This document shows positions 5,694 to 63,695 of a stretch of DNA of 64,000 bases, in pieces. The notes below the pieces were generated by a model. The model did not search any database. It saw nothing but the letters and a program-made list of their open reading frames with translations, and was not told the origin of the DNA. Position numbers and translations under genes: made by a program. Positions within the stretch are counted from its first letter, which is position 1, and the number at the start of each line of letters is the position of its first letter. Source of the DNA: Clostridium sp. JN-9 (GTDB taxonomy: Bacteria > Bacillota > Clostridia > Clostridiales > Clostridiaceae); the NCBI RefSeq assembly GCF_004103695.1, contig NZ_CP035280.1, forward strand, positions 992,001 through 1,056,000. The letters are read 5' to 3'.

Positions 5694-5838
5694 TTAAACA
5701 AGCGCTTATATGTGTACCGAGGGCTATTTCGGGAATTTACGCCTGTGGAGTGCTATACAAACTGTAGTAGCTTAGGCAAGGCAGAGTACAATGAAACAGG
5801 AATTTTCTCAGTATGGATACATTTGACCATATTTTGAG
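5694..5838 (+). ncRNA. Probable omega-RNA (reRNA) scaffold of TnpB and element right end
   Basis: The 145 bases between tnpB and the resumed peptidase sequence encode no protein and are richer in G and C than the surroundings. Known TnpB guide RNAs come from exactly this place, overlap the end of tnpB and extend into the flanking DNA, which serves as the guide. Short complementary segments are visible (for example CCGAGGGCTATTTCGGG at 5718-5734). The exact 3' edge cannot be set from one copy. By position, the guide would be the first bases after the right end, near 5838. Confidence 0.5.
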
Positions 5839-24207: not shown

Positions 24208-24232
24208 ATAAATAATCTTCGTAGAATTAATA

Positions 24233-24243
24233 GGGACGGTTAA
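24233..24243 (+). repeat. Single GGGACGGTTAA dispersed repeat core
   Basis: The leftmost clear copy of the dispersed family with core GGGGACGGTTAAC, in the gap upstream of the small gene at 24363. No inverted partner nearby. Confidence 0.6.
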
Positions 24244-24362
24244 TTTAAATTCGCCATTTTAATATGATAAAATAATAATAAAATTAAATTTTCCATACAA
24301 TAATAAATACCCATATGGTAAAATATATAATAATAAAAGTGCCAGGGAGGTAGTCTTTAGTT

Positions 24363-30625: not shown

Positions 30626-30686
30626 GTTAACCGTCCCTAATTATCTGCCTGTGCCTGGAATTAATAAATAGTTGTTAACCGTCCCC
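30626..30686 (-). repeat. Two tandem copies of the GGGGACGGTTAAC repeat
   Basis: Cores at 30626-30637 and 30674-30686 lie 48 bases apart in the same orientation, each within a unit beginning AATTAATAAA and ending AATTATCT. They sit between cls and the hybrid kinase gene. Confidence 0.8.
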
Positions 30687-35027: not shown

Positions 35028-35112
35028 GTGAGAAATTTGTGATAAACAGGTATTATTATAAGAATATACAGAATAAAAAATCTTTTTTGGAGGCTTTGAT
35101 CTATATACTTAT

Positions 35113-35176
35113 TTGGGCACTTTGTATATAGTGAGCCGTTAGTGCAACCGGCCGGCTTTTAGAGTTTAGGTCGATT
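35113..35176 (+). promoter_or_regulatory. Structured GC-rich leader before the adhesin gene
   Basis: In an otherwise AT-rich gap this patch can form GGGCACT/AGTGAGCC and AGCCG/CGGCT stems around a CCGGCCGG palindrome, and ends in a T-run (35174-35180). It does not match the conserved cores of c-di-GMP-I or other riboswitches I know. It may be a binding site for the upstream response regulator or an RNA attenuator. Confidence 0.35.
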
Positions 35177-42007: not shown

Positions 42008-42119
42008 TTAACTAATAATCATTTTCATTTATCTCAAATATGTGATAAAATATATATGTAATAAAAATATTAATTATTTTCTATATAGATAAGGAAAATT
42101 GCCTTTGGGAGGTATAGAT

Positions 42120-42887
42120 ATGAAAAAAGTTGTATTGCTAAGACATGGAGAAAGTTTATGGAATAAGGAAAATAAATTTACAGGCTGGGCAGATATAGAG
42201 CTGTCTGAAAAAGGAATTGAAGAAGCAAAAATGGCTGGCAGAATATTAAAAGAAGAAGGATATACATTTGATGTAGGTTTTACATCAATGCTGAAAAGAT
42301 CTATAAAAACTTTATGGTATGTGCTAGACGAATTAGAGCTTTTATGGATTCCTGTGGAAAGATCATGGCGATTGAACGAAAGACACTATGGTGCTTTACA
42401 GGGCTTAAATAAAGCTGAAACAGCGGCAAAATATGGACAAGATCAGGTGCAGAAGTGGAGAAGAGATTCTAATGTTTATCCACCAGCTTTGGATAAAATG
42501 GATAAAAGATATCCTGGATTTGATGCAAGATACAAAGACTTAAAGGAAGATGAAATCCCTCTTACGGAAAACTTAAATGATACAATTAAAAGGGTAATCC
42601 CATACTGGAATGAAATAATTGCACCAACAATAAGGCTGAACAAAAAAGTTATAATATCTGCTCACGGTAACAGCTTAAGGGCTCTTGTTAAATACCTTGA
42701 TAATCTTTCCAATGAAGAGGTATCAAATTTAAATATTCCAACTGGCACACCTTTAGTTTATGAATTAGATGATAATTTAAAACCAATAAGACACTATTAC
42801 CTTGGTGATGCAGATGAAATTGCAAAGGCTCAACAGGCAGTAGCAAACCAGGGACGGTTAACAAATAAAATCAGTAAAATCGGGTAA
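42120..42887 (+). CDS. gpmA: 2,3-bisphosphoglycerate-dependent phosphoglycerate mutase
   Basis: Interconverts 3- and 2-phosphoglycerate in glycolysis. The N-terminal [16 protein letters not shown] holds the phospho-His; [22 protein letters not shown] and [14 protein letters not shown] complete the active site. TTG 42099 is in frame, but ATG 42120 follows GGGAGGT. The usual end ...AVANQGK is followed here by about 10 extra codons (LTNKISKIG) encoded by the dispersed repeat, so the C-terminus derives from repeat insertion or shared sequence. Confidence 0.95.
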
Positions 42888-42991
42888 AATTGGGGACGGT
42901 TAACAAATAAGATCAGTAAGATTGGGTAAAATTGGGGACGGTTAACAAATTATTTAAGTATTTTGGTAACGAAAATTAATTAACCGTCCCC
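42851..42991. repeat. 42-bp tandem repeats ending in an inverted pair (REPIN-like)
   Basis: Three cores GGGGACGGTTAAC start 42 bases apart (42851, 42892 and 42934 counted with the variable first G). A fourth copy in opposite orientation follows (42980-42991). Copies three and four form a 58-bp inverted pair able to fold into a hairpin. The first copy lies inside the gpmA reading frame. Confidence 0.85.
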
Positions 42992-44489: not shown

Positions 44490-44502
44490 GTTAACCGCCC
44501 CC
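44490..44502 (-). repeat. Variant dispersed repeat (GTTAACCGCCCCC)
   Basis: One copy of the family with a T-to-C change in the core, in the 280-base gap between the MBL and TPR genes. Downstream (about 44530-44660) an open frame ends ERAFFKFTSYMEKSF and may be an old gene tail; I could not identify it. Confidence 0.6.
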
Positions 44503-47345: not shown

Positions 47346-49256
47346 GGGGCTGTCGCATTAGCATAAAAAAATATGCTAACGCGGCAGCATTTTTTTTGTG
47401 TTTTATAGAAAATTTAATGATATTTTAGTCCCCAATGAGCTTGATAATTAAAAAAAGACGCACTTTAATAAGCCTTTCATATTAAGGCTTTTTTTGATTT
47501 GCAGAGTTTTTAAAATTTTAAAGTTTGATAATTATGCACCTTTTTTAAGTGGAAAAAGATGCGTTTCAGTTCTATCTAACTGAATTTTATTATGTAGCTT
47601 ATTTATATTATGTGCCATTGCTAACAAAATACTTTCTGCCAAAACATTCTTTTTACCTTTGCATAGATATCTACGAAATCCCATATCCTGTTTTATCTCT
47701 CCAAAAGAGCCTTCGGCTTGAATACTTCGATTCATTCTCAACTCGCAACCATCATCACTTATAATTCTTTCAAGATCCTCTTTGCGAAGCATGTTGAATA
47801 GTTTTGAAGTCTCAAGATTTTTAACCCTTTCTTCTAATGGCGTTTTACAGTTATGTCCTCTTATGCATTTACTCTTGTAAACACAGTTACTGCAGTCCTC
47901 ACAAGTATAGATTGTTTTTTCACTTATATAGCCAGTCTTACTTTTCCTTTTTACTATTTTATTTACTGTTAGTTTCTTATTATTTTTGCAAGTATAATAA
48001 TCGCCCAATTCAGTATAATCCATGTTTTCTATTCTGCTTATATCATGTTTATATTTTCTTGTTTTTGATATTTCATAATTTGCTGGTTTAATATATGATA
48101 GCTGTCCATTTTCTTTGATATAAAGATAATTTTCTTCACTCTCGTAACCTGAATCCGCATCAATTTTAAAATACTTAAAGTACAAGGAATTCTCCATGCT
48201 TTTTATAAATGGAATCAATGTTGTTGTGTCCCCAGGCTTATCGCAAACAGTAACCCATACTATATATTGGGAATCTACTCCATTCTGAACATTGTAACCT
48301 GGTTTTAACTGACCATTTTTCATAGCATCCTCTTTCATCCTCATAAAGGTTGCATCTTTATCTGTCTTGGAATAGCTATTACGTTTACCGCAGGTATGGA
48401 TTTTCTGTGTATATTCTTTTAACTTTCTAAGGTATTCCTCAAGTTTTTCAATAGAACGTTGAATAGGAGTTTTCCTTTTACCACATCCATGTACAAATTC
48501 AATATTTTCTTCCTTTTTCAAGGCGTAAAGCTTTTTGCGTAGCTTTTTTACATGTTTCATTTTTACTTTGTTTTCGTATACAAGCTTTATTCCATACAAT
48601 TCCTCACATTCGGCTACAAAATCAGCTAATTTAGAAAGTAATCTCTCCAGGTTTTTTGAAACTGCTTTTTTCCAGACGAAAGTATACTTGTTAGCACATG
48701 CCTCTATCTTTGTACCATCAATAAATATAGTATCTCCTGATATTTCTCCAATCTCATAAAGAAAATTTGACATTTCAGCCATTATTGTTTCTGAGCACGG
48801 GGCAAAATGAATACTACGAAATCTTGCAAAAGTAGAATGATCTGGTGCTGGTGAACCTTCTAAAAGGTACATGAAATTTACATCTCTTTTGCAGGATAGC
48901 TCCATTGCTCTTGATGAATAATTATGATTCATATAGGAGTAAAGTACAATCTTCAGCATCTGACGTGGCGTAGCCTGATTTTCCCTTATTCGGGAATAAG
49001 TCGAATATAAATCTGTTAAATCCATCTCCTCTACAAATTGACTTAGCAAACGCACTGAATCATTATTGGGAATCATGTACTCAATATTTAATGGAAGTTT
49101 TAATTGATAATTTCCACGATATAAAGTATAATTTTTGTGTGAATTAATGTATTTTCTCATATGTTAATTTTACTATAAATCTTTCACTCTTTCGAGTGGA
49201 AGATTTATTTTTATGTAAAAAAGCTGCCGCACCAATTATTTTAGTGCAACAGCCCC
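47346..49256 (-). mobile_element. IS1182-family insertion sequence, complete
   Basis: 1911 bases bounded by imperfect inverted ends GGGGCTGTCGCATTAG (left) and GGGGCTGTTGCACTAA (right, read inward), enclosing one transposase gene on the minus strand. Both ends contain internal hairpins with T-runs (for example 47350-47396) that block transcription from the neighbours, and a further plus-strand terminator is at about 47468-47494. I see no clear target duplication. It lies between pepF and the phosphodiester glycosidase gene without breaking either. Confidence 0.85.
47532..49160 (-). CDS. IS1182-family DDE transposase
   Basis: 542 residues: N-terminal DUF772 domain (RQMLKIVLYSYMNHNYSSRAME ... 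PDHSTFARFR), DDE core with Asp in IFIDGTKIEA and in KIDADSGYES, a Cys cluster (CEDCSNCVYKSKC) and Glu in QAEGSFGEIKQDMGFRR. The frame is intact, so the element may still be mobile. Confidence 0.93.
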   Translation of the reverse strand: MRKYINSHKNYTLYRGNYQLKLPLNIEYMIPNNDSVRLLSQFVEEMDLTDLYSTYSRIRENQATPRQMLKIVLYSYMNHNYSSRAMELSCKRDVNFMYLLEGSPAPDHSTFARFRSIHFAPCSETIMAEMSNFLYEIGEISGDTIFIDGTKIEACANKYTFVWKKAVSKNLERLLSKLADFVAECEELYGIKLVYENKVKMKHVKKLRKKLYALKKEENIEFVHGCGKRKTPIQRSIEKLEEYLRKLKEYTQKIHTCGKRNSYSKTDKDATFMRMKEDAMKNGQLKPGYNVQNGVDSQYIVWVTVCDKPGDTTTLIPFIKSMENSLYFKYFKIDADSGYESEENYLYIKENGQLSYIKPANYEISKTRKYKHDISRIENMDYTELGDYYTCKNNKKLTVNKIVKRKSKTGYISEKTIYTCEDCSNCVYKSKCIRGHNCKTPLEERVKNLETSKLFNMLRKEDLERIISDDGCELRMNRSIQAEGSFGEIKQDMGFRRYLCKGKKNVLAESILLAMAHNINKLHNKIQLDRTETHLFPLKKGA

Positions 49257-52095: not shown

Positions 52096-52515
52096 ATCAT
52101 ACCCTCCATTAATTATTATTATTAATTGTATATTTTAACACTAACACATTTATCTAAATTATCAAGTGCTGTTTTTTGTCGAATGCTACCAGGCAGCACC
52201 CGAAATAAGTCGATAAAATGGGGACGGTTAAGTGAATAAAGCTAATTTCATAGAGTTTAATTGCGGCATTTTAATAACAAATATAAGTTATATTTATGTG
52301 AGGTGCTTCTAGATTAAATAGATATTAAAATATTAAATCATTAAATTAATATTATTAACTTATATATTAATAGTATTAATATTAATATAAATATAATATA
52401 AATATTTTTAATTTTAATATTGATTTATTTTAATAAGGGTAGTATATTATATACATAAGCATTGTAAGATTATTCATAAATTGGATTATATGATTTATTT
52501 AAGGGAGATGAAATT
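52096..52515. other. Intergenic region with one dispersed repeat and an AT-only block
   Basis: Contains a GGGGACGGTTAAG copy at 52220-52232 and a short TGCTACCAGGCAGCA hairpin near 52183. A stretch of almost pure A and T runs from about 52315 to 52440. No gene seen. The promoter of the DUF2089 operon is probably near its right end. Confidence 0.5.
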
Positions 52516-53553: not shown

Positions 53554-54888
53554 ATGAGAGGTAAAAGAAATTTATCATTATATTTAACTGGAAGGTTAAT
53601 TTCTCTAGTTGGGACAGGAATTCAACAAATAGCGCTGCCGCTTTATATTCTGGATTTAACACATTCTGGTGTTATGATGGGAGTATTTTCAATGCTTTGC
53701 CTGCTGCCAAATCTGATAACTTCGCCTTTTGCAGGTATTCTTGGGGATAGGAAAAACAGAAGAAATTTAATGGTAATAGCGGATTTTGGAAGAGGTATTT
53801 TAATCTGCATTTTAGGATTCCTGTCTATGTCAGGGACTATTAATATTTATATATTATTTATAAGTCAGATATTAATTTCCATTATGGACAGTATTTTTGG
53901 AGGAGCTTCGGTGGCCATGCTTCCTGAATTATTATCTGAAGATGAGCTTATGAAAGCTATGTCTATAAGGGGTGCTCTGGATGCAGTCTCAATGATTATT
54001 GGACCGGCACTGGGCGGTATAATTTATGGATTCTTTGGAATTAAAACAGTTTTCTATTTAAATGGAGTTTCATTTATTTTATCGGGAATATGCTCATTGG
54101 CAATAGTATACAAAGCTAAAGTATATGACAAGGGAAAAATAACATTAAGATCATTTTTTACGGAAAATAAAGAAGTATTGTTATTGATAAAAAACAGCAG
54201 GGGGCTCATGCAGTTATTTGCATTTGCAATGATAACAAATCTTCTTATGGAACCTTTGTTTGATATAGTAATGCCTTATGTTATGAAAAAGGGAATAGGC
54301 TTTAGCTCACAGCAGTATGGTTACATAATAACAGCTTTTATGGTGGGGATTCTTATTGGTAACCTAGCCTTGGGCCTTTTCGCGGGTAAATTTAAAACCA
54401 AATTTTTAATGAACAGTGGATTTATTTTAGAAATGATAATGTCTTTTGCACTTACAATTGTAGTATTCCCTAAAGTGGTAAATATTCTAGGAGGTAACAG
54501 CTGGAATCTATTTATAATTCTTTCACTTATATGTCTATTCATGGGAATCTTTAATGCAGCAGTTAATACTCCACTTAATACAAATCTTCAGAAAATGGTA
54601 TCTAATGATATGAGATCAAGATTTTTCTCATTGCTTGGAGTTTTTTCACAGGGTGCAGTCCCTCTCGGAGCAATTATATATGGTATCCTTTTAGATAAAT
54701 TTCATTACTTTAATATAATGTTTGTAATAACAATATTGACATCAGCTATAACCATATACTTTATTATAAAGGCAGTTCCAGAGGTTTATGATCCAAAACC
54801 AATTGGAAATAATGCAAAAATAGAAGAAAAGAGTTTGACGGGGACGGTTAACAACCTAAACAACTTAAAAGGGATGGTTAACAACTGA
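53554..54888 (+). CDS. Major facilitator superfamily transporter
   Basis: 444 residues with 12 helices and the MFS motif A region (AGILGDRKNRRNLM), of the MFS_3/enterobactin-exporter-like group often linked to drug efflux. Last gene of the DUF2089 operon. Its final 16 or so residues (TGTVNNLNNLKGMVNN) are encoded by two dispersed repeats, so the natural C-terminus was probably shorter or different. Confidence 0.88.
   Translation: MRGKRNLSLYLTGRLISLVGTGIQQIALPLYILDLTHSGVMMGVFSMLCLLPNLITSPFAGILGDRKNRRNLMVIADFGRGILICILGFLSMSGTINIYILFISQILISIMDSIFGGASVAMLPELLSEDELMKAMSIRGALDAVSMIIGPALGGIIYGFFGIKTVFYLNGVSFILSGICSLAIVYKAKVYDKGKITLRSFFTENKEVLLLIKNSRGLMQLFAFAMITNLLMEPLFDIVMPYVMKKGIGFSSQQYGYIITAFMVGILIGNLALGLFAGKFKTKFLMNSGFILEMIMSFALTIVVFPKVVNILGGNSWNLFIILSLICLFMGIFNAAVNTPLNTNLQKMVSNDMRSRFFSLLGVFSQGAVPLGAIIYGILLDKFHYFNIMFVITILTSAITIYFIIKAVPEVYDPKPIGNNAKIEEKSLTGTVNNLNNLKGMVNN
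54840..54882 (+). repeat. Two dispersed repeats at the MFS 3' end, left flank of the transposase
   Basis: Cores GGGGACGGTTAAC (54840-54852) and GGGATGGTTAAC (54871-54882), 31 bases apart, pointing toward the Y1 transposase gene. A third decayed copy is at about 54930-54939. Confidence 0.8.
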
Positions 54889-54923
54889 CTAACTTCTAAC
54901 TTTCAACTTCCAATTTTTAACTA
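54889..54923. repeat. Degenerate heptad array
   Basis: AACTTCT, AACTTTC, AACTTCC, AATTTTT and AACTA follow each other directly after the MFS stop. Same type as the arrays at 9428 and 13954 (opposite orientation). Confidence 0.55.
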
Positions 54924-55135
54924 AGGAATGGTGGTTAACAATTTACCAATGTTTTCAAATAAGTTGAATAACATCCTTTGTTGGAGTCAATACTATTAGC
55001 TATATAATTTCATTTAGTAAATCACTATTTAAGTGAGCAAAAATACTGATGCTTCTACAGTTTTTTGAGAAGCTGCATAGCTGATTTACTTTGAAATCTA
55101 TTTGGTTGAGTTTAACAAAGAATGGGGTGTTTTCA

Positions 55136-56050
55136 TTGCCAAGAACTGAAAGAATAAAGATGGATAATGCAATATACCATGTTATGGTGAGAAGTATAAC
55201 TGAAGTTCCGTTGTTCAAAAAAGATGATGATAAAGACAAATACTTGAAACAGATGAAGGATTACCAAACAATATTTGGATTCAAGGTATATGCTTATTGT
55301 ATCATGACTAACCATGCACATTTCATAATTGATTCCAATGGAGCAGACATATCAAAAATAATGCATGGACTGAATTTTAAATATGCAGTTACTTATAATA
55401 GGATTCATGATAGGCATGGACATGTGTTTCAAGATAGATTTAAGAGCAAAATAGTTGATACTGATAGATATTTAGTTACTTTATCAGCTTATATTCACAA
55501 TAATCCTTTAAAAATAAAGGGTTATGAAAACTGTCCTGAAAAGTATAAATATTCAAGTTTAAAAGTGTATTTGGGTCTTAAAAAAGATGAAACAGGTCTT
55601 TTGGATGAGGCTTATATAATGCAAATGATGGGTGAAAATGTTAACAATGCAAGAGATAGATATTTAAAATTTGTATATATGTGTGATAAAGAAAAGCTAA
55701 AGAAGGAAATGGAATTTGAAGATGAAAAGACTGAGTATAGAAGTCAGAGAAAGGTACTGGTTAGAAATTTCAGCCCAGAGAAGATAATAGCCTTTATTTG
55801 TGAAGAAACAGGCATAGAAAAGCTAATGATGTATATGAAGAACAGCAGAAATAATAAGGAAGCAAGAGCATTAGCAGTGCTTTTAATGAGAAGCCTCTGT
55901 AATTTTAAAATTAAGCATATCTGCCAGATCCTTGGTAATATTACGGAATCCAGGGTTTCAAAGCTATGCTCCATAGGAGTTGAACTTATATCCACGGAGG
56001 ATAGGTACAAGGATATTGTAAATAAATTTATTCTTCAGCAGGTGTGTTGA
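55136..56050 (+). CDS. Y1 (HUH) transposase, RAYT-like
   Basis: About 304 residues. It starts MPRTERIKMDNAIYHVMVRS, has the HUH metal motif TNHAHFII and a catalytic-Tyr region with SAYIHNNPLK followed by YKYSSLKVYLG, all hallmarks of REP-associated tyrosine transposases. A C-terminal extension (about residues 180-300) carries a DnaA-C/HTH-like region. The longer frame begins at 55091, but GGGGTG precedes TTG 55136. It stands alone, without tnpB, and is flanked by inward-facing dispersed repeats. It looks like a single-copy, possibly domesticated transposase that could act on them. Confidence 0.9.
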   Translation: MPRTERIKMDNAIYHVMVRSITEVPLFKKDDDKDKYLKQMKDYQTIFGFKVYAYCIMTNHAHFIIDSNGADISKIMHGLNFKYAVTYNRIHDRHGHVFQDRFKSKIVDTDRYLVTLSAYIHNNPLKIKGYENCPEKYKYSSLKVYLGLKKDETGLLDEAYIMQMMGENVNNARDRYLKFVYMCDKEKLKKEMEFEDEKTEYRSQRKVLVRNFSPEKIIAFICEETGIEKLMMYMKNSRNNKEARALAVLLMRSLCNFKIKHICQILGNITESRVSKLCSIGVELISTEDRYKDIVNKFILQQVC

Positions 56051-56080
56051 AAAAACATTTAAGTTAATAAGAAATTATAC

Positions 56081-56123
56081 AGCCTTTTATGGCCATTTTT
56101 TTATACTTTATAAAAGGCTTTAT
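56081..56123 (+). terminator. Terminator after the transposase gene
   Basis: AGCCTTTTAT / ATAAAAGGCT enclosing about 19 bases, followed by TTATTTG. Confidence 0.8.
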
Positions 56124-56291
56124 TTGTTTGCATTTTATTATTTTGTACAAGCTTCAAGCTGTTCGAATTCTTTATAAATGAGAATCAATAATGAAGTAAT
56201 TACATAGCAGAATAATAGTATGTTTAAATATTAATATATAGGAAAATCAAATTAGGCGTAGGCAATGCTATAAACTTAACAGATAAAAAAT

Positions 56292-56303
56292 GTTAACCGT
56301 CCC
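56292..56303 (-). repeat. Dispersed repeat at the right flank of the transposase
   Basis: GTTAACCGTCCC in inverse orientation to the copies at 54840 and 54871, so the gene is enclosed by inward-facing repeats. The rest of the 56051-56405 gap holds only the two terminators. Confidence 0.8.
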
Positions 56304-56357
56304 ACCGTTACACTGTTACATTTCTCCCGCAATAATTCAGGGAACTAAATGAGATTA

Positions 56358-57501: not shown

Positions 57502-57591
57502 CTTAACCGTCCCCAAGAGATACCAGGGAATATTGCTAAGGAAGCTTAACCGTCCCTTAGAAATATTGCCAAAAAAGCTTAACCGTCCCCC
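57502..57591 (-). repeat. Three dispersed repeats in one orientation
   Basis: Cores CTTAACCGTCCCC start at 57502, 57545 and 57578, each preceded by AAG. They fill the gap before the ABC exporter; the remaining 57300-57500 is AT-rich with no gene. A 72-codon frame through them has no ribosome site. Confidence 0.85.
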
Positions 57592-61176: not shown

Positions 61177-61181
61177 ATTAA

Positions 61182-61193
61182 GGGACGGTTAAG
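61182..61193 (+). repeat. Single dispersed repeat after the ABC exporter
   Basis: GGGACGGTTAAG begins 6 bases after the stop codon of the exporter gene. Confidence 0.75.
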
Positions 61194-63334: not shown

Positions 63335-63469
63335 TTAAAATATTTTATGCTATACTTTTCATTTAACCACTAGCTTATGTAAAATAAAGGGTATTGTTTC
63401 AATTACCTATTGACAATACTTTTATAATTTTATATTATTTTATCAAGAACACAAAATTAATAAATACGT

Positions 63470-63695
63470 TACTAGGAAGAGGAAAAGTAAATATTATAAT
63501 CTTTTTAAAGAGAAGAAGTCATTGGTGGGAGACTTTTAAAAGAATAATTTTGAACCAGCCTCTGAGTTCTGCACTGAAGTAATAGTAGGCTGCAGCGGGA
63601 GTTTTCCGTTAAAACAATAAGTGAGTATATGAAAGTATACTAACGAGGGTGGTACCACCGATAACTCGGTCCCTATTGGGATCAGGTTTTTTTTA
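63470..63695 (+). promoter_or_regulatory. T-box leader controlling proS
   Basis: The T-box AGGGTGGTACCACCG is at 63646-63660. A terminator (GGTCCC / GGGATC with eight T, ending 63695) follows, and a Stem I-like region (AGAGAAGAAGTC at 63509) lies upstream. Uncharged tRNA would stabilise the antiterminator. The likely specifier codon is CCA at 63555-63557 (Pro), consistent with the downstream gene. The 5' edge is approximate. Confidence 0.9.

Follow-up and report, generated by a model that had tools for sequence, protein, structure and literature searches.

The window that we analysed, a 64-kb stretch of the 3.22-Mb genome of Clostridium sp. JN-9, harbours a gene for a Y1/HUH transposase that is positioned between inward-facing GGGACGGTTAAC repeats and inside a halo of further repeats, which take the form of single units, direct arrays and convergent, REPIN-like doublets. 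We consider it probable that this is a transposase of the TIRYT type (subclass 2.1) with its cognate repeat family, and that the halo was made by processing of the repeats. The initial annotation had described a Y1/HUH transposase enclosed by inward repeats, and this was confirmed; its flanking coordinates at 54840 and 56292 were correct, while the repeat that it placed at 54871 begins one base earlier. A search with GGGGACGGTTAAC allowing up to two mismatches gave 16 matches in the window compared with 0.25 expected and a maximum of 2 in 100 shuffles, so the abundance first claimed is far above chance even though the count of 'about 18' was slightly too high. The gene and the repeats are as follows:

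24232..24244, plus strand: halo repeat farthest from the gene in the window, 2 mismatches
30626..30638, minus strand: one unit of a halo repeat pair
30674..30686, minus strand: the other unit of this pair
42850..42862, plus strand: halo array unit 1, within the 3' end of a phosphoglycerate-mutase-like ORF
42892..42904, plus strand: halo array unit 2, 42-bp period
42934..42946, plus strand: halo array unit 3, pairing convergently with 42979
42979..42991, minus strand: convergent partner of the 42934 unit
44490..44502, minus strand: halo repeat
52220..52232, plus strand: halo repeat
54840..54852, plus strand: upstream inward repeat, exact, in the 3' end of an MFS ORF and coding for part of its C-terminus
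54870..54882, plus strand: second upstream inward repeat, AGGGATGGTTAAC, 2 mismatches
55136..56050, plus strand: Y1/HUH transposase gene, 304 amino acids, TTG start
56292..56304, minus strand: downstream inward repeat, 1 mismatch
57502..57514, minus strand: halo array, unit 1 of 3
57545..57557, minus strand: halo array, unit 2 of 3
57578..57590, minus strand: halo array, unit 3 of 3
61181..61193, plus strand: halo repeat, beginning 4 bp past the end of an ABC-transporter ORF

Two ORFs in the window, the phosphoglycerate-mutase-like ORF (42099-42887) and the MFS transporter (53554-54888), are invaded by repeats at their 3' ends, such that the repeats code for their last residues. The window also contains a DDE transposase (DDE_Tnp_1_6, DUF772; 47532-49160, minus strand), which is an unrelated insertion sequence within the halo, and three RNAs at Rfam gathering thresholds: a RAGATH-18 RNA (5742-5802), a c-di-GMP-II riboswitch (35080-35162) and a T-box leader (63465-63677). 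A near-palindromic MITE-like element of 104-111 bp (55000-55103, plus strand) has approximately 26 copies in the genome and folds as DNA to -14.2 kcal/mol (z -2.9); four of these copies are close neighbours (about 200 bp or less) of four transposase copies (0.1 expected), and two of the pairs may be of shared ancestry.

The window protein has the HUH motif NHAHF (amino acids 59-63), in which the middle residue is A, and the Y motif YIHNNP (amino acids 119-124). Pfam analysis identified Y1_Tnp (1.8e-15) and, under the Pfam cut-off, a C-terminal HTH domain, Bac_DnaA_C (7.9e-5); the NCBI model for REP-associated tyrosine transposases (NF047646) scored 63.3 bits (2.1e-17), which does not reach its cut-off of 80. 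The best Foldseek match of an AlphaFold2 model (mean pLDDT 74.8 and pTM 0.67, from an alignment of only seven sequences) was the E. coli RAYT with a REP hairpin (4ER8), at a weak E of 5.6e-3. When compared using VIA-align 2, the N-terminal part of the model aligned with 4ER8 over 148 residues (Z 11.2) and residues 212-303 with domain IV of E. coli DnaA (1J1V) over 92 residues (Z 15.0); the Y1 HUH fold of IS200/IS605 (2A6M) gave a Z of 9.3. Profile and model comparisons thus show a predicted architecture of an N-terminal RAYT-like nuclease (amino acids 2-191) and a C-terminal DNA-binding domain resembling DnaA domain IV (amino acids 212-303). The combination of a RAYT-like Y1 nuclease with a C-terminal DnaA_C-like HTH is that of TnpA-Y1 subclass 2.1, which has been equated with the TIRYTs (Quentin 2018, PMC6006769), and it is to this type that the predicted architecture and the motifs assign the window transposase. 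A VirB8-like match in a sequence-profile search of the PDB (E 0.01) was weak and was judged to be due to chance, and a PHROGs search for phage origin gave no match.

Within the window the transposase is alone, as the initial annotation had stated, but a 97%-identical copy begins 1.6 kb past the right end, and the gene is not single-copy as had been supposed: the genome encodes five close copies (about 84-100% identity) and one relative at 54-65%, all six being flanked by inward repeats. This divergent sixth copy (L036; 2920625-2921584, minus strand) contains a 62-bp exact direct repeat at a 57-bp offset that keeps the frame, and its flanks have the tails TTCA upstream and TTAA downstream. Three more distant Y1 proteins with 32-35% identity are encoded at 2041971, 2057771 and 2586559 of the same genome.

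Five copies of 84-97% similarity, two of them approximately 10 kb apart, are what might be expected of an ordinary insertion sequence, that is, a transposase with inward terminal repeats mobile as a unit, with the scattered repeats being remnants of departed or decayed copies; relatives have 1-6 homologues per genome, and the 4-6 found in some genera fit this explanation as well. We nevertheless regard it as unlikely, given that the two copies 10 kb apart already have a dS of 0.24, that homology between the own-genome copies ends at no fixed terminal sequence, with repeat count and distance to the gene differing between them, that the halo consists of doublets and arrays with no gene remnants, and that the motif is Y---NP and not the Y---Q of IS200. 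Furthermore, most of the loci compared show 20-kb synteny between species. This synteny points to vertical inheritance of the gene, which with a dN/dS of 0.04-0.18 is under purifying selection; it therefore behaves more like a domesticated RAYT than an insertion sequence.

A homologue of the transposase (E<=1e-40) was found in 65 of 207 genomes of the family. At least three copies of GGGACGGTTAA were present in 45 of these 65 genomes, compared with 2 of the 142 genomes that have no homologue (Fisher 3e-27, the genomes being related and not independent), with means of 14.6 and 0.18 copies per genome respectively. Equal abundance in relatives lacking the gene had been named at the outset as the observation that would count against a gene-repeat pair, and the repeat is instead concentrated in the carriers. 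In the genome of the window there are 43 exact copies of this sequence and 2 of the reversed control. Co-occurrence spans many genera, with carriers including Clostridium liquoris, C. psychrophilum, C. bowmanii, C. tagluense, Caloramator, Fervidicella and Haloimpatiens among others; one genus of more than 60 genomes, with no homologue among those listed, is practically repeat-free. Gene loss as a gauge of repeat decay was considered for one genome (G083), in which 10 repeats accompany a homologue of only 34% identity, but its fragmented assembly lacks the syntenic locus.

The flanking arrangement is equally widespread: inward GGGAC[GA]GTT occurs within 650 bp in 64 of 65 oriented 20-kb loci (36-100% identity), and inward repeats were present on both sides in 40 of the 63 usable loci of an overlapping named set. 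An apparent inversion of the gene between its flanks was an artefact of showing loci on the plus strand of the genome. In remote relatives (33-38% identity) from Desulfosporosinus, Syntrophomonadaceae and other MAGs, one or both flanks usually carry GGGACGGTTCTTG. A 39%-identical relative in a Clostridiaceae MAG (L237) is flanked by inverted GGGGACACTTCTCACC repeats, in which GGGGACAC matches GGGGWSAS exactly, and by its sequence this repeat appears to bridge the clostridial and the published terminal-repeat motifs. These data support the original proposal that this Y1 transposase is a Gram-positive one whose flanking repeats are cognate and arranged as in REP/REPIN-RAYT systems.

The consensus of 412 repeat contexts is approximately aaaattGGGGACGGTTAACAAcTATTT, nine core bases of which were preset by the search, and it has no GTAG/GTGG foot. 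Neighbouring repeats within 200 bp form 81 direct, 64 convergent and 1 divergent pairs; spacing has a mode of 42-46 bp in direct pairs and is mostly 36-50 bp in convergent ones. The 68-nt convergent doublet at 42934/42979 is able to form a 13-bp stem (-14 kcal/mol, z -3.6), whereas a single repeat unit forms no hairpin (-0.3 kcal/mol, z 0.6). At more than 600 bp from the gene the repeats are mostly intergenic, the commonest site of halo repeats being the 3' end of a gene, with the arrow directed away from it (91 versus 37). Inward units outnumber outward ones by 37:10 at 1-2 kb, 48:20 at 2-4 kb and 34:18 at 4-6 kb, so that an inward bias extends to approximately 6 kb. Comparison of the arrays between species at 94-95% identity showed differences in blocks of 33-186 bp comprising whole units, with a spacer specific to each array, which is local tandem expansion or loss; no clean gain of a repeat at a previously unoccupied site could be resolved in these comparisons of close species. 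We also considered cargo cassettes between inward repeats and rejected them, as 50 of 62 convergent gaps are below 100 bp and there is no prominent 1-2 kb class.

In what we take to be the likeliest mechanism, the repeat would be recognised by helix 72-92 in the nuclease domain, to which the DnaA-like domain may contribute. Repeat DNA in single-stranded form, for example the hairpin of a doublet behind the replication fork, would be nicked and rejoined by the nuclease; repeat copies would be re-inserted close by, and arrays would lengthen and shorten by tandem units.

The bases that follow GGGACGGTT fall into three classes: TTA, TTCA and TTCT. The tail class of the flanks is that of the halo in 48 of 51 loci, and genomes with C-tailed flanks have GGGACGGTTC in bulk (137 copies in G192, 109 in G191, 83 in G185 and 52 in G118) with GGGACGGTTAA almost absent. 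On a protein tree from which helix 72-92 was left out, the tail changes 5 times, compared with at least 12 in 200 shuffles. The protein columns most informative on the tail are residue 81, followed by 224, 85 and 134. Q is present at residue 81 in 18 of 20 C-tailed proteins versus 3 of 44 A-tailed ones, the helix motif being NQ[CS]YAQ in C-tailed loci and mostly N[FLS]KYA-x in A-tailed loci; one locus (L136) has gone back to TTA and has R85, and another (L140) is an exception. In an alignment with E. coli RayT (EcRayT), residue 81 stands opposite K82, although this alignment is remote (hhalign probability 0.7%), so the register may be a residue or two off. In EcRayT, K82 is described as part of the DNA-binding helix alpha3 and as touching REP base C27 (PMC8266576). 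An independent-pairs test of residue 81 against the tail had only 2-5 usable switches, too few for a sign test. From the sequences compared, the tail is thus associated with residues 81 and 85, and given the remote alignment and the few independent switches we treat the link between residue 81 and the tail as a lead and not as proof.

With many units in direct arrays and a favoured spacing of 42-46 bp, these could be thought of as simple tandem or chance repeats bearing no relation to the transposase. That is scarcely credible: it is refuted by the genome counts (43 versus 2) and by the strict inward and convergent orientation, and both the co-occurrence and the tail matching tie the repeats to the gene.

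The halo stays within approximately 20-50 kb of the gene, and in many clostridia the gene has its own field of repeats of 20-40 kb. In the genome of the window, 41 of 43 repeats are located within 50 kb of a transposase copy, and 8 of 14 non-flanking clusters are within 20 kb of one compared with 0.88 expected. Five other genomes contain 95 exact 9-mer cores, of which 69 lie no more than about 20 kb from a homologue; the remainder, 26, falls short of the 55 found with the reversed control, and copies away from the gene are therefore no more than background. The REPs of Marinomonas also cluster near their gene, which was interpreted as indicating recent arrival (PMC8266576). In the clostridia the halo remains local even though the locus is syntenic between species (82-95% nucleotide identity), and confinement here therefore looks intrinsic.

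The repeats themselves are unusually well conserved. For single halo repeats, an exact core is kept at the orthologous intergenic place in 67% of comparisons at 82-92% identity, versus 20-21% for intergenic 9-mers, and in 75% versus 4-13% at below 82% identity; the p-values of this comparison (<=0.006) are too strong because the comparisons share loci. Halo clusters retain the core in 42 of 44 comparisons at >=92% identity, 131 of 141 at 82-92% and 64 of 76 at <82%. Since the clusters are old and stable, present mobility is unproven, and the suggestion in the initial annotation that the system is perhaps still active was not supported, the clear differences between close species being gains or losses of tandem units. 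Such conservation, along with the position of halo repeats mainly at gene 3' ends pointing away and the purifying selection on the transposase, would agree with the repeats now being functional sites kept by selection (for example iteron-like sites bound by the DnaA-like domain and acting in local expression, transcript ends or replication), the transposase having become a host protein and ceased to spread them. We think this improbable: array length differs between close species, many relatives lack both gene and repeats, and copying or homogenising by the transposase would likewise keep the cores identical, so that selection and continued copying would both explain the conservation. There is a comparably small chance that a domesticated HUH nuclease with a DnaA-type origin-binding domain maintains by selection a fixed, oriented field of repeats within 20-40 kb, as a local chromosomal marking system and not as selfish repeats. 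A TIRYT-type transposase that processes its own repeats is the explanation we prefer.

With about 65 gene-repeat pairs occurring in nature, in which three types of tail, one candidate specificity residue and a local halo are represented, culturable clostridia offer a direct way to test binding, cleavage and target range. The system bears on how REP-like repeats originate, spread and persist, and the unusually high conservation raises the question of whether such repeats are selfish or useful.

By comparison with known systems, the clostridial family is a Gram-positive version of the TIRYT branch, and its kind is already known from TIRYT/TIRtron and RAYT/REP elements. TIRYTs and TIRtrons have terminal repeats, many with GGGGWSAS (Di Nocera 2013, PMC3733652), and with TIRYT or subclass 2.1 proteins the window transposase shares the Y---NP motif, the N-H-hydrophobic-H HUH motif and the Bac_DnaA_C-like C-terminal HTH. 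As in TIRYTs, the gene lies between inverted repeats, whose copies (TIRs) occur as dimers and clusters in some genomes, and GGGGACGG, which the initial annotation had called an unrelated core, matches GGGGWSAS, the known TIRYT terminal-repeat motif, at 7 of 8 positions. Published TIRs differ in being long and moderately abundant in some organisms, whereas the clostridial unit is short (about 13-20 bp), co-occurs with the gene across the family, has a halo that is conserved and strictly local, and shows tail matching. No REP-like sequences were reported near subclass 2.1 (PMC6006769), and Clostridia and Firmicutes are unmentioned in PMC3733652. The CGTC-tagged REPs described there were also compared, given that AACCGTCCC holds CGTC, and were rejected because they are palindromic and have no association with a transposase gene.

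With the RAYT/REP/REPIN systems of E. coli (rayT), Pseudomonas, Stenotrophomonas and Marinomonas the clostridial family has in common the nuclease fold (4ER8) and vertical inheritance, with REPINs the convergent doublets in one fixed orientation (64 convergent versus 1 divergent), and with Marinomonas REPs the concentration near the gene (PMC8266576). It differs from canonical RAYT/REP systems in that the repeat has no GTAG foot and a single unit is non-palindromic, the protein carries an extra DnaA-like domain, there are several gene copies per genome, and the halo is local even at loci syntenic between species and not just after recent arrival. The Y1 HUH fold is shared with IS200/IS605 (subclass 1.1), which has Y---Q in place of Y---NP; the clostridial protein has the DnaA domain, and its gene copies are not near-identical and have no fixed element ends.

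An open-literature search for GGGACGGTT in clostridia returned nothing related among the matches listed, and we know of no earlier demonstration that subclass 2.1 (TIRYT) proteins act on adjacent repeats. To our knowledge, the clostridial GGGACGGTT family is new relative to the open literature, as are its co-occurrence with the gene across the family, the strict rule of orientation, a halo that persists and is conserved, and the link between tail and residue.
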